A program made the position numbers and the translations under genes. A stretch of 35,407 bases of DNA from Clostridia bacterium. GTDB taxonomy: Bacteria; Bacillota; Clostridia; Oscillospirales; CAG-382. Positions 11,827 to 25,405 of this stretch are shown piece after piece. Position 1 is the first letter of the stretch. Each line of letters opens with the position of its first letter. The notes beneath the pieces are model-generated. The model was given only the letters and a program-made list of their open reading frames with translations. It was not told the origin of the DNA and searched no databases. Location: NCBI GenBank assembly GCA_017549405.1, contig JAFYUY010000139.1, positions 1 through 35,407 on the forward strand, in the 5' to 3' direction.

Positions 11827-12960
11827 ATGGCAAAATCAAAAGCAACCGAAAAAAACGGCGGCGAAAAGGAAAAGAAAAACGAAATACTCCAGCTTATCGA
11901 AAAAGGTAAGGCAAAGGGCTCTCTTTCCACCGAAGAAGTGCTGGAGGTAATTGACGAAACAGAGCTTGACGTTGAACAGATAGAAAAGCTTTACGAAACA
12001 TTCGAAGAACTCGGTATTGAAATAACCGGCTATTCCGATGCGGATATCTCCCTTGACGAAATAGCGGCTGTAAATATCGACAACTACGACGATACCGACG
12101 ACCCCGACGGGCTGATTTCCCAGGAGGGAACGCTTATTGACGACCCCGTAAGAATGTATCTTAAGGAGATCGGTAAGGTAAACCTTCTTGACACCGATAC
12201 AGAGCTTGCTCTTGCCGAAAAAATGGTGAACGGTGACGAAGATGCAAAGAAGATACTTGTGGAAAGTAACCTGCGCCTTGTGGTAAGCATTGCAAAGCGA
12301 TACGTGGGACGAGGAATGTTCTTCCTCGACCTTATCCAGGAAGGAAACCTGGGTCTTATGAAGGCAGTGGAAAAATTTGACTACACCAAGGGATACAAAT
12401 TCTCCACCTATGCCACATGGTGGATACGTCAGGCAATAACCCGTGCCATCGCAGACCAGGCACGCACCATACGTATTCCCGTACATATGGTAGAGACCAT
12501 AAACAAGGTGATGCGCGTTTCCCGTCAGCTCCTTCAGGAACTGGGACACGAAGCTTCCACGGAGGAGATCGCAAAGGTAATGAACATGTCCCCCGAAAAG
12601 GTTCGCGAAATAATGAAGCTGGCGCAAGAGCCCGTAAGCCTTGAAACCCCTATCGGTGAGGAGGAAGACAGCCACCTGGGAGATTTTATCCCCGATGACG
12701 ATGCACCGGCACCGGCGGAAGCCGCATCCTACACACTTCTCCGAGAGCAGCTCAACGAGGTTCTCCACACCCTCACCCCACGTGAGGAGGAGGTTCTGAA
12801 ACTTCGTTTCGGTCTTGAAGACGGCAGAACACGTACCCTTGAGGAAGTGGGCAAGGAATTCAATATCACTCGTGAGCGTATCCGCCAGATCGAAGCAAAA
12901 GCGCTTCGCAAGCTCCGTCATCCCAGCCGCTCCAAGCGTCTGAAGGATTATCTTGACTGA
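11827..12960 (+). CDS. rpoD: Primary RNA polymerase sigma factor (SigA/RpoD)
   Basis: This 377-residue group 1 sigma factor has region 1.1 at residues 15-60, region 1.2 ([17 protein letters not shown]), region 2 ([38 protein letters not shown]), the region 2.4/3.0 segment [20 protein letters not shown] in its canonical form, the finger [11 protein letters not shown], and region 4.2 ([20 protein letters not shown]). It follows dnaG by 28 bp, the standard arrangement in Bacillota. This copy is the housekeeping candidate because region 2.4-3.0 matches the RpoD consensus; a close paralogue lies at 13700. Confidence 0.97.
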
Positions 12961-13699: not shown

Positions 13700-14848
13700 A
13701 TGGCAAAATCAGCGTCAAACAAAAAAAGCGCATCTCCGGATAACAGCATAGTAAACACTCTTGCAGATACTCTTACCGAGCGTGCAAAAGCCACAGGCTC
13801 ACTTTCAAGCTCTGATGTTATTGACTGCATCGATGATACGGGCATTTCCATAGAACAAATAGAAATGCTTTACGATATCCTTGAAACCCGTGGAGTGGAA
13901 ATTTCCGATTTTACCGACGAAGAAACCTTTCTCAACGAAATTATAGCCGAAGAAGACACGGAAGAAGAACAGGAGCTCGACGACGAATACGCAGAGCCCG
14001 AAAGCGACTATTCCATCGTCAACGATTCGGTGCGCGTATATCTTAAGGACATCGGAAAAATAAAGCTTTTAAGTGCCGACCGAGAGCTTGAGCTTGCAGA
14101 AAAAATGGCACTCGGCGACGAAGAAGCAAAAGCCGAAATAATCGAAAGCAACCTGCGCCTTGTGGTAAGCGTTGCCAAAAAATACACAGGCCGCGGTATG
14201 CCCTTCCTTGACCTTATCCAGGAGGGAAACATCGGTCTGATGAAGGCAGTGGAAAAGTTCGATTACACAAAGGGCTACAAATTTTCCACCTATGCCACAT
14301 GGTGGATACGTCAGGCAATAACCCGTTCCATATCCATCCACGGCAGAACCATACCTCTCCCTGTACATATTGTTGAAAAAATAAATAAGCTAAGACAGAT
14401 ATCGCGCAATGCCATGCAGCGTCTGGGACGCGAACCCAACGATGCGGAAATTGCCGAAGAAATGGGCTGTTCCGTGGAAAAGGTGCGCGAGATAATAAAA
14501 TACGCGCAGGATCCCATAAGCCTTGAAGACCGCGTGGGCAAGGAAGAGGACAGCGTTATAGGAGATTTCATTCCCGATGCAAATGCCCCGGACCCCGAAG
14601 AGATAGTTTCCCGCACGATACTCCACGAAAAGATAATGGAAGCTCTCGACAGCCTCACCCCGCGTGAATCCAGCGTCATAAAAATGCGTTTCGGACTCAT
14701 TGACGGCAAGATCCGCACCCTTGAAGAAGTTGGCGAAGAATTCAACATCACCCGTGAACGCATCCGTCAGATAGAAGCAAAGGCTTTGCGCAAGCTCCGT
14801 CACCCCAGCCGCATAAAGATGTTTAAGGATTATGGCTCGGGGAACTAA
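13700..14848 (+). CDS. Second RpoD-like sigma factor (group 1/2 paralogue)
   Basis: This 382-residue sigma factor is closely similar to the one at 11827 across regions 1.1, 1.2, 2, 3 and 4. Region 2.1-2.3 and the WWIRQAITR helix are conserved, and the region 4.2 recognition helix [20 protein letters not shown] is identical, so -35 preference should be the same. It differs where region 2.4 meets 3.0: [12 protein letters not shown] replaces [12 protein letters not shown]. The region 1.1/1.2 linker is very acidic and the finger reads [12 protein letters not shown]. It follows mtnN by 24 bp with AGGAG before the ATG. It probably recognises a shifted promoter set around the -10 or discriminator; which genes is unknown. 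Confidence 0.92.
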
Positions 14849-18814: not shown

Positions 18815-19972
18815 TTATTTTTCCGGAATAAGTACAAATATTCCGTTTGAATCCTTAAGCTGATCTCTTATCTGAACAGGTGCTTTACCTGATGCCGCAG
18901 TACTTACACCTTTAAGACCTCCGAGCGTCTTGCCCTCGTCCTGAACATAAATATTGCTGTCGAAAAGCTCGCAGCTGCGTTTATCCACGTCGAGAAGATA
19001 TCCCGCGCAGCGGTCTATGATAGTGAATCTGCACAGCATATTTTCATTTTCCGCATCCACTGTGGAGAAGGAGTAAAGGCGGGCATGGCTCTGTCTGTTT
19101 GTAACTATGGACCCCCAGCCGTAACCTCCCATACGCAGCACGTTATACTGCGAAAGATAGTTTTTAAGGCTGGTCGTTTTATTATCGCCCGTAGGCTTTA
19201 TCCAGCATTCTATACCCCAGTGAACATATTCCATAAGGTTTCCGGAATATTCTATTCCGTTCATGCGGAGGTCGTTTCCCTGATGTGTTACGGCTGTATC
19301 GTATATCTGATACATCCAGTTATTCTTTACGTAATAGCCTTCAAGGTTGCCATAAACTTCAACGGCATTTCCGAATTGCGTGGTAGTTTCTCCATGGTTT
19401 CCGAGGAGCGAACCGCCAAGCCACGAGAATTCGCAGTTGGTAACATTCAGGTTTTTTACGCCTCCCAGTCCTATTCCGTGAGTACCCGTGTGCTTTACGT
19501 GTACGTTATCTATTGTGATGTCATTTCCGCCGCCGTCAAAAACATCACCGCTATCGCCAATCTCTATGGACGAAAATCTTTCACCCGGGTTTCCCTGCGT
19601 GCTGCAGAGATAAAGGGTGTTGGGCGAGGAATAGAACTGCAGATCTTTGGTGAGTCCTTTATAATCGGCAATGTTTGCACCGTAAATGCGGTTTTTGCCG
19701 TAAAGGCCGTCGTAATTTCCGTGGGCATCCGATGCGTGATCAAATACGATGATACCAACGTTAACAATGTTTTCCTTCAGCTTATAAACATTGGGGGCAT
19801 CTGTCAATTCCCAAAGGGCGGGATCGGCAAAGTTTTTCCTGGAACCCGAAATCACGGGTTTGTCGCCTGTGCCGTAGGAGCCGTAAAGCATGCCCGATAC
19901 AACGTTTATCTGACCGCGGTATATTCCACCTCGCTCAAACAGCACGGCTGTATTTGCTCCCGGGAAACGCAT
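18815..19972 (-). CDS. Beta-helix (pectate-lyase-like) domain, cut off from the SLH gene by an in-frame stop
   Basis: These 385 residues form a right-handed beta-helix domain closely similar to the protein at 22065. Shared segments include AVLFERGGIYRG versus NILFERGGVWRG, HGIGLGG versus HGVGIGG, and NWMYQIYDTAVTHQ versus NWIYQIYDTAITHQ. The frame is continuous with the SLH gene upstream. After its TAA (20048-20050), 25 in-frame codons lead to the ATG at 19972, and those codons (KNVNDDNDGKSPEKAL) also match the homologue (NSGNDENDGKSPESAW). This is therefore best read as the C-terminal part of one 989-codon surface protein. A weak AAGG before the ATG leaves reinitiation possible. Such folds occur in polysaccharide lyases and glycosidases. 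Confidence 0.8.
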   Translation of the reverse strand: MRFPGANTAVLFERGGIYRGQINVVSGMLYGSYGTGDKPVISGSRKNFADPALWELTDAPNVYKLKENIVNVGIIVFDHASDAHGNYDGLYGKNRIYGANIADYKGLTKDLQFYSSPNTLYLCSTQGNPGERFSSIEIGDSGDVFDGGGNDITIDNVHVKHTGTHGIGLGGVKNLNVTNCEFSWLGGSLLGNHGETTTQFGNAVEVYGNLEGYYVKNNWMYQIYDTAVTHQGNDLRMNGIEYSGNLMEYVHWGIECWIKPTGDNKTTSLKNYLSQYNVLRMGGYGWGSIVTNRQSHARLYSFSTVDAENENMLCRFTIIDRCAGYLLDVDKRSCELFDSNIYVQDEGKTLGGLKGVSTAASGKAPVQIRDQLKDSNGIFVLIPEK

Positions 19973-20047
19973 TTTTGCCTTAAGTCCTTCGATGGTCTTA
20001 AGGGCTTTCTCGGGACTCTTGCCGTCGTTATCGTCGTTTACGTTCTT

Positions 20048-21784
20048 TTAGGAAACATAATATTTGTTTTTACGGGGTTCGTAGATCTCGTAGGTGTTGG
20101 GAGTATTGAGAATATCGTCCTTCATCTTTTCGGAAATGGCATCTATTCCGCGGCGTATGGCATCCCCGGTCAGATTTTTACCCGCCTCGTGAAGCGAGGT
20201 TATATATTCCTGCGCACAATTTCCCGTGAGAACATACTCTTTTGCCGCAGTATCTGTGCTCCATGCGTTTTCAGCAGACGAGCTTGCGGCGGCAACTATC
20301 TGTCCGCTTGCCCAGTGAGCATCGATATCGGAAAATTTTGCACCGTGCAGGCTATCCTGCGGAATTCTTTTGAGAATACGGTTTATTACCGTTACGGTCT
20401 CCGCACGGGTTATGTTTTCCATCGGACGGAATGTGCCGTCCATGTAACCTTCAATTATACCGTTTGACGCTGCGTAAACCACGGCATCGTACCAGCGGTC
20501 GGAGTATTCCACATCGGGAATAACGGGTATTCTCACACTGTCGTAGCTTCTGTCGGATAAAGCATAAATTATTTCCGTAAGCTCCGCCCGGGTTATTTTT
20601 TTGTCGGGTTCAAAGTTTTCGTCAAATATGGCAAGCGCACCGAGTGAATCAAGAAGAGCCACATATTTTAAGTACCATGCATCCGACGGGATATCGGAAA
20701 ATCTTGTGACATTCGCTTCGGGAATATCCGCACCCAAGATCGATGCTATAATCTTTGCAGCCTCTGCACGGGTAACATTTTCCTGAGGCAAAAATGTGCC
20801 GTTGGGATAACCGCTTATATATGAATCCGAAAATGCAGAAAAATTGAATTTGAAGTTGAAGCCCGGCACAAAGAAAATATCCTCTCCGGCAAGCATTTCA
20901 AAACTGTCGCCCGCATTGTATTTCTCACCGTCAAAGGTGCATATCCAATGCGAAAATTCCGCGCCCACGGGGAGCGTTCCGTTAAATCCGGGCAAGATAA
21001 AGCTTTCGAGATCGGTGCATTTTATGGTGGCGATCGCTTTTTCGATGCTGCCGGCATGGGTCTCGTTTTCAAAGAAATATGCAGTTCTTTCACCAAACAC
21101 CGAGTCATCATCGGGGTGCCAGCTCTGAATGGAGATTTCACCGAGATAAAGGGCATCGTTTTTGCCCATGTTGCGCTCCAGCGGGTAGAACTTCATCTGA
21201 TGGAGATAATAGAGTCCATCGGAATACTTATTTCTGATGAGCGCTTCAATAGAAGGGTTGGCAGCCAGCGGAATTATCAGCTTCGACCATTTATTGGCAG
21301 TTATGGTATTTTCGGAAAATGCGTGATTGCCCCATCCGAATTCTATTATCTGAGAAAGGTTTTCTTCGGGAACTATTCTTCCCTGAACCCACCTCATGCG
21401 GGCACCCTCAAGGGCGGGTGATGCATCGGGGGACTCATAGTAATAGTCCATAACGATGTATTTTGCCGTGTGGAGCGGAACGTAATCGCCGTTACCGTCG
21501 GCAAACATACCCCAACGATACATACAGAAGTTTATGGAAGTATCGTCGGAGCCCGTTCTGCCTATATAGCGGACCTCGTGGCCGTCAAAAGTCTCCAGCT
21601 GTGTTTCGTAGCCTCTGTAGTCATCTTCAAAGGCGGAAATGTTTTTTGTGGGAAGAGTCTGCTTTGCAAAAGCATTTAAGTTATCGTTTTTACTTTCGGC
21701 AAACACTGCGGGGAAAGCCTGCAAAACAAGGCATATTGCGAGCATTACCGCAAAAAGCCTTGAAGATACGTTTTTTTTGATCAT
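20048..21784 (-). CDS. Secreted SLH-domain surface protein (N-terminal part of an interrupted gene)
   Basis: These 578 residues begin with a signal peptide (MIKKN then a hydrophobic stretch ending VFAES). A beta-rich region of unknown type follows (about 40-260). Three S-layer-homology repeats (about 310-505) are recognisable by FSDSYISGYPNGTF, TRAEAAKIIASILG, FSDIPSDAWYLKYVA, ITRAELTEIIYAL, YSDRWYDAVVYAASNGIIEGYMDGTF and ITRAETVTVINRIL. SLH repeats tether proteins to pyruvylated wall polymers. The last 70 residues are a helical linker that matches the N-terminus of the protein at 22065, and the frame stops at TAA exactly inside that shared region. AAAGGA precedes the ATG. Without the beta-helix domain the product would be an anchor without its catalytic part. 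Confidence 0.88.
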   Translation of the reverse strand: MIKKNVSSRLFAVMLAICLVLQAFPAVFAESKNDNLNAFAKQTLPTKNISAFEDDYRGYETQLETFDGHEVRYIGRTGSDDTSINFCMYRWGMFADGNGDYVPLHTAKYIVMDYYYESPDASPALEGARMRWVQGRIVPEENLSQIIEFGWGNHAFSENTITANKWSKLIIPLAANPSIEALIRNKYSDGLYYLHQMKFYPLERNMGKNDALYLGEISIQSWHPDDDSVFGERTAYFFENETHAGSIEKAIATIKCTDLESFILPGFNGTLPVGAEFSHWICTFDGEKYNAGDSFEMLAGEDIFFVPGFNFKFNFSAFSDSYISGYPNGTFLPQENVTRAEAAKIIASILGADIPEANVTRFSDIPSDAWYLKYVALLDSLGALAIFDENFEPDKKITRAELTEIIYALSDRSYDSVRIPVIPDVEYSDRWYDAVVYAASNGIIEGYMDGTFRPMENITRAETVTVINRILKRIPQDSLHGAKFSDIDAHWASGQIVAAASSSAENAWSTDTAAKEYVLTGNCAQEYITSLHEAGKNLTGDAIRRGIDAISEKMKDDILNTPNTYEIYEPRKNKYYVS

Positions 21785-22064: not shown

Positions 22065-23516
22065 ATGTATACAGAAAAACTTACTCCCGCGGCGATAAAT
22101 GCCGTAAAAGCCATTGACGAGCTGAATTCCAAAAACATCACGGACTATGCCCTTTACGAAAAAGGCATTGATGAAGTTTCTGAGCAGTTAAAGCGTGATG
22201 TTATAAATGCCCAAAGCGACTATGACCCGTCGCTTCCCACATTTTATGTTTCAAATTCGGGAAATGACGAAAACGACGGCAAAAGTCCCGAATCCGCATG
22301 GAAGACCCTTGATAAAATAAATGATGCAGGTTCCACACCCGAGCACTGCAACATTCTTTTTGAGCGTGGCGGAGTGTGGCGCGGATGCATAAATCCACCA
22401 CACAACTACATAACCTATTCCGCATACGGCAAGGGCAAAAAGCCTTGCATCTACGGTTCGTGGCGCAATTATGCGGATCCCGCTCTCTGGCAGAAGACCG
22501 AATATCCCCACGTATGGTACACCGATGCGTGCGGCAAGAACATAGGCATCTGTGCCATAAACCACAGCGATGAATACGGAAGATACGATGAGCTTGTGGC
22601 TTTCCGTTGCGTGCAGGGCGTACATGGATTTGAGGGTCCGCAGAACTTTACCCGAAACATGGAATACTGGTCCGAGGTCGAAAAGCCGGGCTTTTATCTG
22701 CGTTGCGAATACGGAAATCCCGGAGAAGTTTTTGAATCCATAGAGCTTGGTGAGCGTGTGAACCTCATTACGGGTGCAGATCATATAAAAATAGATAATC
22801 TCTGCGTAAAATATTCAGGTGCTCACGGTGTTGGCATTGGCGGAAAGACAGATTATACCGTGCAGAACTGCATATTCTGCTATCTCGGCGGTTCCATTCT
22901 TACGGGCTTTAACGGCGGAAACAAAGTTGGCTACGGCAATGCCGTGCAGGTTTACGGAGAATGCTTCGGCTATTACGTAAACGGCAACTGGATATATCAG
23001 ATATACGACACCGCCATAACCCATCAGTTCAGCGGTACACGCTCCGATAAACCAAACCACATGAAGGATGTGGAATATATAGGCAACCTTTGCGAATATT
23101 GCCACTGGTCGATAGAATACTATAATCCTGCAAGCGTGACCGTTCCCGAAACACCGAGAACTGTTAAGAATGTAAATGTTTCCCACAATGTTCTGCGCAT
23201 GGGCTGCTATGGTTGGGGAAGCCGGGGACGTGAGGATAACGGTGCGCTGTTCAACAGCTTCAGTATGACACCCGAAACCGAAAACTTCGAGGCTCATTCC
23301 AATATCATGGACAGATGCCTTGGAAAAATGGTGCGTCTTACTGTGGGCGGCGACGAAAAGCTGATTTCTTCCGATAACACTTTTATTCAGCAGGAGGGCA
23401 GAGCCTTTGGCTGGTGCTACGGTCAGAATTATGCCTTCACCCGTGAAAATGCGGAAAAGTATGCCAACGAGCTTTTCCACGACAAATCGGCTAAGGTGAT
23501 CTTCTCCGAAAGCTGA
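22065..23516 (+). CDS. Cytoplasmic right-handed beta-helix (pectate-lyase-like) protein
   Basis: The protein has 483 residues and no signal peptide. A helical N-terminus (residues 1-65) precedes a parallel beta-helix domain that begins after TFYVSNSGNDENDGKSPESAWKTL, a typical entry motif for such folds. The whole length aligns by eye with the C-terminal end of the SLH protein at 20048 plus the domain at 18815, so the two are paralogues, one surface-bound and one intracellular. The exact activity (lyase, epimerase or hydrolase) cannot be read. AAGGAG precedes the ATG. It is the first gene of a two-gene operon with a heparinase-like lyase 20 bp downstream, so it may process oligosaccharides after uptake. 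Confidence 0.78.
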   Translation: MYTEKLTPAAINAVKAIDELNSKNITDYALYEKGIDEVSEQLKRDVINAQSDYDPSLPTFYVSNSGNDENDGKSPESAWKTLDKINDAGSTPEHCNILFERGGVWRGCINPPHNYITYSAYGKGKKPCIYGSWRNYADPALWQKTEYPHVWYTDACGKNIGICAINHSDEYGRYDELVAFRCVQGVHGFEGPQNFTRNMEYWSEVEKPGFYLRCEYGNPGEVFESIELGERVNLITGADHIKIDNLCVKYSGAHGVGIGGKTDYTVQNCIFCYLGGSILTGFNGGNKVGYGNAVQVYGECFGYYVNGNWIYQIYDTAITHQFSGTRSDKPNHMKDVEYIGNLCEYCHWSIEYYNPASVTVPETPRTVKNVNVSHNVLRMGCYGWGSRGREDNGALFNSFSMTPETENFEAHSNIMDRCLGKMVRLTVGGDEKLISSDNTFIQQEGRAFGWCYGQNYAFTRENAEKYANELFHDKSAKVIFSES

Positions 23517-23536: not shown

Positions 23537-25405
23537 ATGATGAAGATGTTTACCCCAAAAGAGCTGGCAGAAAAAATTCTCCCGTATGACAGCTTTGATA
23601 TTTTCAACAAAGAATGCGGAATAACCCTGCCGCAGAAAGGCTCGGAAACCTATGCCCTTGCTGTGGATATGGGTGAAAAATACCTTGATTACACAATTCC
23701 GGTCCTCCCCCTTTCGCAGTATATCCGATTTACCGATGACGGTAACAGAAACGGATACGAAACCCCGTATTTTGACAGACGACGCGCGCTCATCTCCCTT
23801 ATGAGTGCGGAGCTTTGCGAGGGAGAAGGCAGATTTATCTCCAAGATCATGGATATTTTGTTTGCCATATGTGAGGAATCCACGTGGGTCGTGCCTGCTC
23901 ACAACTACAGCGTGAAATGCCACACCGAACCTGTGATTGCCAAAATGCCCGAGCCTGTGGGCGACAAAATCTGGGCAATAGATCTCTTTTCAGCGGAAAC
24001 GGGAGCACACGTGGCTCTGGCTCTTTATCTTTTCAAGGAAAAGTTTGAAGAAAAGATACCCCGCCTTTTCTGCGACAGACTTCGCTACGAGCTCAACCGC
24101 CGAATAGTGCGTCCTTATCTTGACACATATGACCTTTGGTGGATGGGCTACAACAGACCTTCCGTAAACAACTGGAACCCGTGGATAAACTTAAACGTAA
24201 TGACGGTTGCCGTGTTTTCCGCAGAGGATACCCGCACGCGCCATGCCCTTGCGGAAAAGTGTGCGGAGAGCATAAACTTTTATGCAAACAGTCTTCCCGC
24301 CGACGGTGGCTGTGACGAGGGACCCAACTACTGGGGTGTGGCAGGTGCGTGTCTTGCGGAATTTGCCGAACTGTGCTTTTATGCCACGGGCGGAAAATAC
24401 AACGTGTTTGATAACAAGCTTCTGTTTGATGCGGTGGATTATATCCGCAAGGCAAATATTGCAGATGATTATTATTTCAACTGCGCCGATTCCCATGCAA
24501 AAACCAGACCCGATCATGCTCTTATCCGCCGCATAGCCAAAAAGCTCGGCAACGAAAACCTTTACTGCTTTGCAAATTCCCACATGAAAGAAGGTGCAAA
24601 AAAGCTGTTTGAAAGAGGTGCCTCGCATCACCTGCCCTGCACTGCGCTGTTTTCCATGTGCGATGCGGAATACGACACCGACGCACCCGGGTATAAAGCA
24701 CTGCGGTGCGAGGTGTTTGAATCCATGGAGGTGGCATGTCTTCGTGAATGCGATGACCCGCAAAAAGGCTTTTACCTTGGCACAAAGGGTGGTCATAATG
24801 CCGAAAACCACAACCATCTTGATGTGGGAAATTATATTGTATATTGCGATGGCAAGCCGGTCGTGATTGATGCCGGTGTGGGAACTTATACAAAATTCAC
24901 GTTTAGCCTCGATACCCGCTACAATATGTTTGCTTTCCGTACCGAGGACCACAATCTGCCTCTTATCAACGGGCACGGACAGTGGATAGAACGGGAGCAC
25001 CATGCCGAAGATTTTACAGTAAAGCGTGCGGAAAATACCGTTTCCATGCAGCTTAAGGAGGCTTATTCCAACAAGGATGAGATAGAAAGCTTTACAAGAA
25101 CCGCCTCTCTTTCGGATGGAAAGATCACGGTTTGTGACAGTATAAAGCTCTTATCCCCGGGAAGTGCGGAATTTTTCGTTACGGTCTTAAATAAGCCCGA
25201 AAAGCTTGGCAAAAACACTTTCCGCATTGCGGAGGATGCCGTTATCAGATTTTCGGATGGCTTTGACGTGACCGCACACCCCATAGTTTTTGAGGATGCA
25301 GCCTTTGCCCGTGACTGGGAAACGGACAGAATATATAAATTCAGCATAAAGAGTGCGGAAAACCTTAAAACAATAGAGCTTGTTGCGGAAATTTCGCACG
25401 GATGA
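23537..25405 (+). CDS. Heparinase II/III-family polysaccharide lyase
   Basis: This 622-residue protein has the two-domain layout of heparinase II/III-like lyases. An alpha/alpha-toroid (about residues 60-350) contains WWMGYNRPSVNNWNPWINLNVM and the conserved DGGCDEGPNYWGVAG. A C-terminal beta-sandwich contains GGHNAENHNHLDVGNYIVYCDGKPVVIDAGVG, whose His and Asn residues are expected in the catalytic and metal sites. Such enzymes cleave uronic-acid-containing glycans by beta-elimination. There is no signal peptide, so it probably acts on imported oligosaccharides. GGAGG precedes the ATG; two further in-frame ATGs follow closely. It is the second gene of the operon beginning at 22065. Confidence 0.87.
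   Translation: MMKMFTPKELAEKILPYDSFDIFNKECGITLPQKGSETYALAVDMGEKYLDYTIPVLPLSQYIRFTDDGNRNGYETPYFDRRRALISLMSAELCEGEGRFISKIMDILFAICEESTWVVPAHNYSVKCHTEPVIAKMPEPVGDKIWAIDLFSAETGAHVALALYLFKEKFEEKIPRLFCDRLRYELNRRIVRPYLDTYDLWWMGYNRPSVNNWNPWINLNVMTVAVFSAEDTRTRHALAEKCAESINFYANSLPADGGCDEGPNYWGVAGACLAEFAELCFYATGGKYNVFDNKLLFDAVDYIRKANIADDYYFNCADSHAKTRPDHALIRRIAKKLGNENLYCFANSHMKEGAKKLFERGASHHLPCTALFSMCDAEYDTDAPGYKALRCEVFESMEVACLRECDDPQKGFYLGTKGGHNAENHNHLDVGNYIVYCDGKPVVIDAGVGTYTKFTFSLDTRYNMFAFRTEDHNLPLINGHGQWIEREHHAEDFTVKRAENTVSMQLKEAYSNKDEIESFTRTASLSDGKITVCDSIKLLSPGSAEFFVTVLNKPEKLGKNTFRIAEDAVIRFSDGFDVTAHPIVFEDAAFARDWETDRIYKFSIKSAENLKTIELVAEISHG

Follow-up and report, generated by a model that had tools for sequence, protein, structure and literature searches.

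In Salmonella, 346 of 378 pseudogenes carry a single inactivating mutation, which is a premature stop in 131 of the 346, and in most of them sequence change is accelerated little or not at all, according to the excerpted text of Kuo and Ochman (2010; PMC2916853). For gut bacteria, nonsense mutations have been proposed to be reversible, as stated in excerpts of a further study (PMC11379459). Two groups of proteins are also relevant, namely SLH-anchored surface proteins (e.g., the S-layer protein Sap) and GH136 lacto-N-biosidases (LnbX, ErLnb136 and TnX). The latter have a right-handed β-helix in common with the family described here, and the available part of one report gives the catalytic Asp pair of ErLnb136 (PMC7335108). 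A literature search on SLH β-helix proteins and on premature stops in assembled genomes found nothing on this SLH β-helix family among the papers listed.

The window (the whole stretch of 35,407 nucleotides that was analysed) corresponds to contig C137 of an assembly of 1.69 Mb, which comprises 156 contigs and is 58.9% complete. It holds a gene for an SLH and β-helix protein that is broken by an in-frame stop. Like the young Salmonella pseudogenes of the excerpted study (PMC2916853), the gene has a single inactivating point mutation in one genome, an intact remaining frame and change without acceleration. Unlike that set, the window is compared with one genome per species, none of them close. 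As in SLH-anchored surface proteins, there are three SLH stretches, and profile matches extend to solved SLH domains; unlike in those proteins, the anchor is severed from the enzyme domain by the stop.

The interrupted gene and its family

Translated on the minus strand, a detail that the first-pass annotation did not give, positions 18815-21784 form a single frame that is interrupted exactly once, by the TAA at 20050-20048, and the gene's own terminal stop is the TAA at 18817-18815. This translation bears out the first-pass annotation, in which a single in-frame TAA cuts an SLH and β-helix protein. The features of the locus are as follows.

18815..20047, minus strand: downstream open frame P0002, 410 codons plus terminal TAA; β-helix minus its first strand (translation, AlphaFold2 model, structural matches)
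19970..19972, minus strand: earliest in-frame ATG past the stop, at residue 26 of P0002; a weak candidate start (sequence)
20039..20041, minus strand: Val codon; every aligned relative with a letter in this column has Gly (alignment)
20048..20050, minus strand: in-frame TAA in a column that is Glu in 37 of 39 aligned relatives (translation, alignment)
20048..21784, minus strand: upstream open frame P0001, 578 amino acids (translation; PF00395)
20270..20830, minus strand: SLH repeats, approximate extent, residues about 319-505 (family rows matching only 319-505; Pfam)
22065..23516, plus strand: intact SLH-less β-helix paralogue of another branch (translation, tree)
23537..25405, plus strand: neighbouring gene whose product ends in a heparinase II/III-like domain (PF07940, E 1.3e-6)

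P0001 starts with a signal-peptide-like hydrophobic stretch, followed by an N-terminal domain, several SLH repeats (PF00395 in three stretches, E 3.1e-29) and the start of the enzyme domain. The 410-codon downstream part has no Pfam match at E 0.001, and of the five intact SLH-linked relatives that were scanned, four give Beta_helix matches, all under the cut-off of that family. The nearest relative (G004:C51) has no stop and matches residues 7-987 of the 989 in the query at 59% identity. This similarity across the stop is far beyond chance.

The family search covered 40 genomes, one per species, with at most 21 candidates scored in each, and returned at least 150 rows. Among the matches listed, 121 span the junction and 94 cover both halves, with a stop in two of these 94 (the broken gene and G006:C8:57592-59733). 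The relatives whose contigs are named lie mostly in Clostridia and Oscillospiraceae metagenome-assembled genomes, one of them labelled water buffalo colon. The genus as a whole (G000-G004) shows a strong expansion of SLH and β-helix and related proteins, with at least 15 to 23 matches per genome. The second SLH and β-helix member with an internal stop, L124 (G006:C8:57000-60500), contains one TAG just before its first SLH repeat.

The position of the stop within the fold was located on an AlphaFold2 model of an intact relative, L055 (mean pLDDT 81.1, pTM 0.66). The model places a strand at residues 569-572 and the conserved Glu at 574, and structural matches to β-helix enzymes start at about residue 566. 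The model thus indicates that the stop lies inside the enzyme domain, after its first β-helix strand and away from a domain boundary. Structural comparison gives a right-handed β-helix, a fold found in many glycan lyases and hydrolases, and members of the family are surface-anchored (SLH) right-handed β-helix proteins and probably enzymes that act on glycans. GH136-like activity, and with it a putative membership of GH136, is suggested by a profile match confined to the N-terminal strand region (7v6m, E 6.7e-14) and by a weak NCBIfam match of the paralogue to LnbX, far under the cut-off. The structural Z scores to GH136 enzymes are 17.7 to 21.3, and other β-helix enzymes do as well or better, with BT_1002 at 24.6 and the alginate and pectate lyases at about 22. 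A phmmer search of the downstream part against solved structures returned no match.

Origin of the stop codon

Forty SLH-linked relatives were fetched for alignment (14 full-length, six others from the same genome and 20 more), drawn from the family listing and forming part of its members; L124 was set aside for its own stop, leaving 39. The column of the stop holds Glu in 37 of these (35 GAA, two GAG), the exceptions being L133 with Ser and L122, which is one codon shorter. The solved GH136 enzyme 7v6m also aligns across the position without a gap. The prevalence of Glu in this column indicates that the stop is a substitution at a conserved codon.

The first-pass annotation had instead read the TAA as an inserted codon, from a gapless alignment to the intact paralogue at 22065. 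The letters that it compared are correct, but the paralogue is the wrong yardstick, as it has no SLH part and comes from a different branch, in which this point is by nature one codon shorter, and the deduction of an insertion fails with it. In a 47-row tree of the β-helix domain, the downstream half of the broken gene and the 14 full-length SLH relatives form one group of 15 rows (100/100), whereas the 22065 protein groups with short SLH-less rows and L122 (eight rows, 100/99). L122, the sole SLH-linked relative among those aligned that is one codon shorter, falls in the paralogue's branch; long branches leave the finer placement around the 22065 protein unsure. The case shows how a substitution can be mistaken for an inserted codon when the wrong paralogue serves for comparison. 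Gene conversion from a stop-bearing paralogue was rejected as a source, given that no such donor occurs among the relatives aligned.

Gene order was of limited help in assigning orthology. The SpoIID neighbour of the broken gene lies on other contigs in the relatives, and in G004 the SLH gene shares its contig with the heparinase-like gene and a short β-helix gene, at a distance of about 16 kb. With synteny broken in this way, the relative L104 is regarded as a putative orthologue only.

Constraint downstream of the stop

The frame after the stop was described at first pass as undamaged, and this holds: it contains no second stop and retains 122 of the 126 positions that are invariant in the 14 full-length relatives. 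In a leave-one-out comparison, L104 and L112 each retain 126 of 130 downstream invariant columns. Upstream of the stop, 106 of 120 such columns are retained, and the SLH half departs from family-invariant residues more often (14/120) than the β-helix half (4/126).

Against 13 outgroups, changes specific to the window's copy numbered 30 to 42 downstream and those specific to L104 numbered 23 to 35, and the window:L104 ratio downstream was never above the upstream ratio. With L112, L116 and L117 as outgroups, the window branch carried more downstream changes than L104 (39:23, 42:26 and 42:27, respectively), an excess that is also present upstream.

By codon count, a stop would arise from 157 of the 3690 single changes that the downstream codons allow. 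At equal rates, three further stops should have appeared once neutral changes reached about 0.057 per site, and none was observed. Third positions are saturated, with about 41% identity to L104. One downstream change stands out, a Gly to Val substitution three codons past the stop (about ten bases away) in a column that is otherwise invariant, which could reflect relaxed constraint, a local error or chance.

Explanations of the stop

The stop is probably a nonsense allele of very recent origin that affects one member of a large paralogous family. In this explanation, a point substitution would have created the TAA from a conserved sense codon that directly follows the first β-strand of the enzyme domain. 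Translation should stop there and yield an exported 578-amino-acid anchor that lacks the enzyme domain, and the 410-codon remainder, which lacks both a nearby start and a signal peptide, would probably not be made as a working enzyme. The mutation would be too young for decay to show in the rest of the gene. We infer that the TAA is a real base rather than a consensus error, and that function has been lost. A very recent mutation and an assembly error, both named at first pass, remain the leading explanations, and the locus looks like an ordinary loss of one gene copy or such an error and not like a new genetic device. If real, it adds one more young nonsense allele, and the many SLH β-helix paralogues per genome could buffer such losses; its wider importance is small unless strains prove to switch between two states.

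The main rival, which is appreciably less likely, is a sequencing or assembly error, i.e., a wrong consensus base in a gene that is intact in the cells. The incomplete and fragmented assembly fits an error, as do the proximity of the stop to the odd Gly to Val change and the lack of damage in the rest of the gene. However, the changes are substitutions and not frameshifts, the other genes of the window that have a Pfam or NCBIfam match are open frames, so that the contig, as far as seen, is not rich in errors, and the 25 β-helix-half rows listed from the same genome have no internal stop (the row of the broken gene itself begins just after its stop).

The remaining readings offered at first pass, i.e., phase variation, two proteins and read-through, gain little or no support. 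A very improbable one is that the stop represents a passing loss, favoured locally, of one surface enzyme among many paralogues, with populations carrying both states and toggling between them by mutation and reversion. Pressure from phage or diet would be an example of what favours such a loss, and reversal would be easy since the rest of the gene is intact. The product is predicted to sit at the cell surface, and premature stops are frequent within the host in Bacteroides fragilis (28 of 325 nonsynonymous changes), according to excerpts of the gut study (PMC11379459). However, the codon signature used in that excerpted study for reversible nonsense is absent from the family of the broken gene: stop-adjacent codons are not enriched (66 of 852 Leu and Ser codons in the family versus 81 of 1148 in the other window genes, p 0.60). 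Nor are there repeats that would allow slippage; switching driven by slippage or repeats was rejected for lack of tandem or direct repeats, and the repeat search returned two inverted repeats, both imperfect and separated by more than 240 bases.

It is still less probable that the two parts are made as separate proteins, an SLH anchor and a stand-alone β-helix enzyme, in the manner of split GH136 enzymes. The excerpted text on these enzymes describes the GH136 domains of Roseburia as separate gene products that need co-expression and those of E. ramulus as fused (PMC7335108), and the in-frame ATG at 19972 is preceded by a weak purine-rich stretch. In the Roseburia case, as excerpted, the genes are separate and the split falls between domains, whereas here the cut lies within the β-helix, past its first strand and at no domain boundary. 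The 25 codons before the ATG are also conserved like coding sequence save for the one Val, and the remainder starts without a signal peptide. Neither the matches listed nor the 39 aligned relatives include one in which the anchor and the β-helix are distinct genes divided at this position.

Read-through of the TAA to yield some full-length enzyme is the least credible of these explanations: the intact downstream constraint and a hairpin from about 35 bases past the stop (z -2.35 with 200 shuffles, -2.19 with 60) would suit it, but TAA is the usual terminator, nearly all relatives have a sense codon at the position and, among 38 relatives folded over the corresponding stretch, the stop-free L141 reaches a z of -2.26, no higher than the 60-shuffle value. 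The hairpin, which is modest, far from the stop and equalled by one intact relative, was therefore rejected as a signal, as was a suppressor tRNA, none being among the 15 tRNA genes found in this 58.9% complete genome. Reassignment of TAA to sense throughout the genetic code was rejected because TAA ends 15 of the 23 window genes (the final stop of the broken gene included); it also ends 11 of the 14 full-length relatives.

Elsewhere in the window, two genes for RpoD-type sigma-70 factors lie near each other (11827-12960 and 13700-14848), with a phosphorylase-superfamily gene between them.
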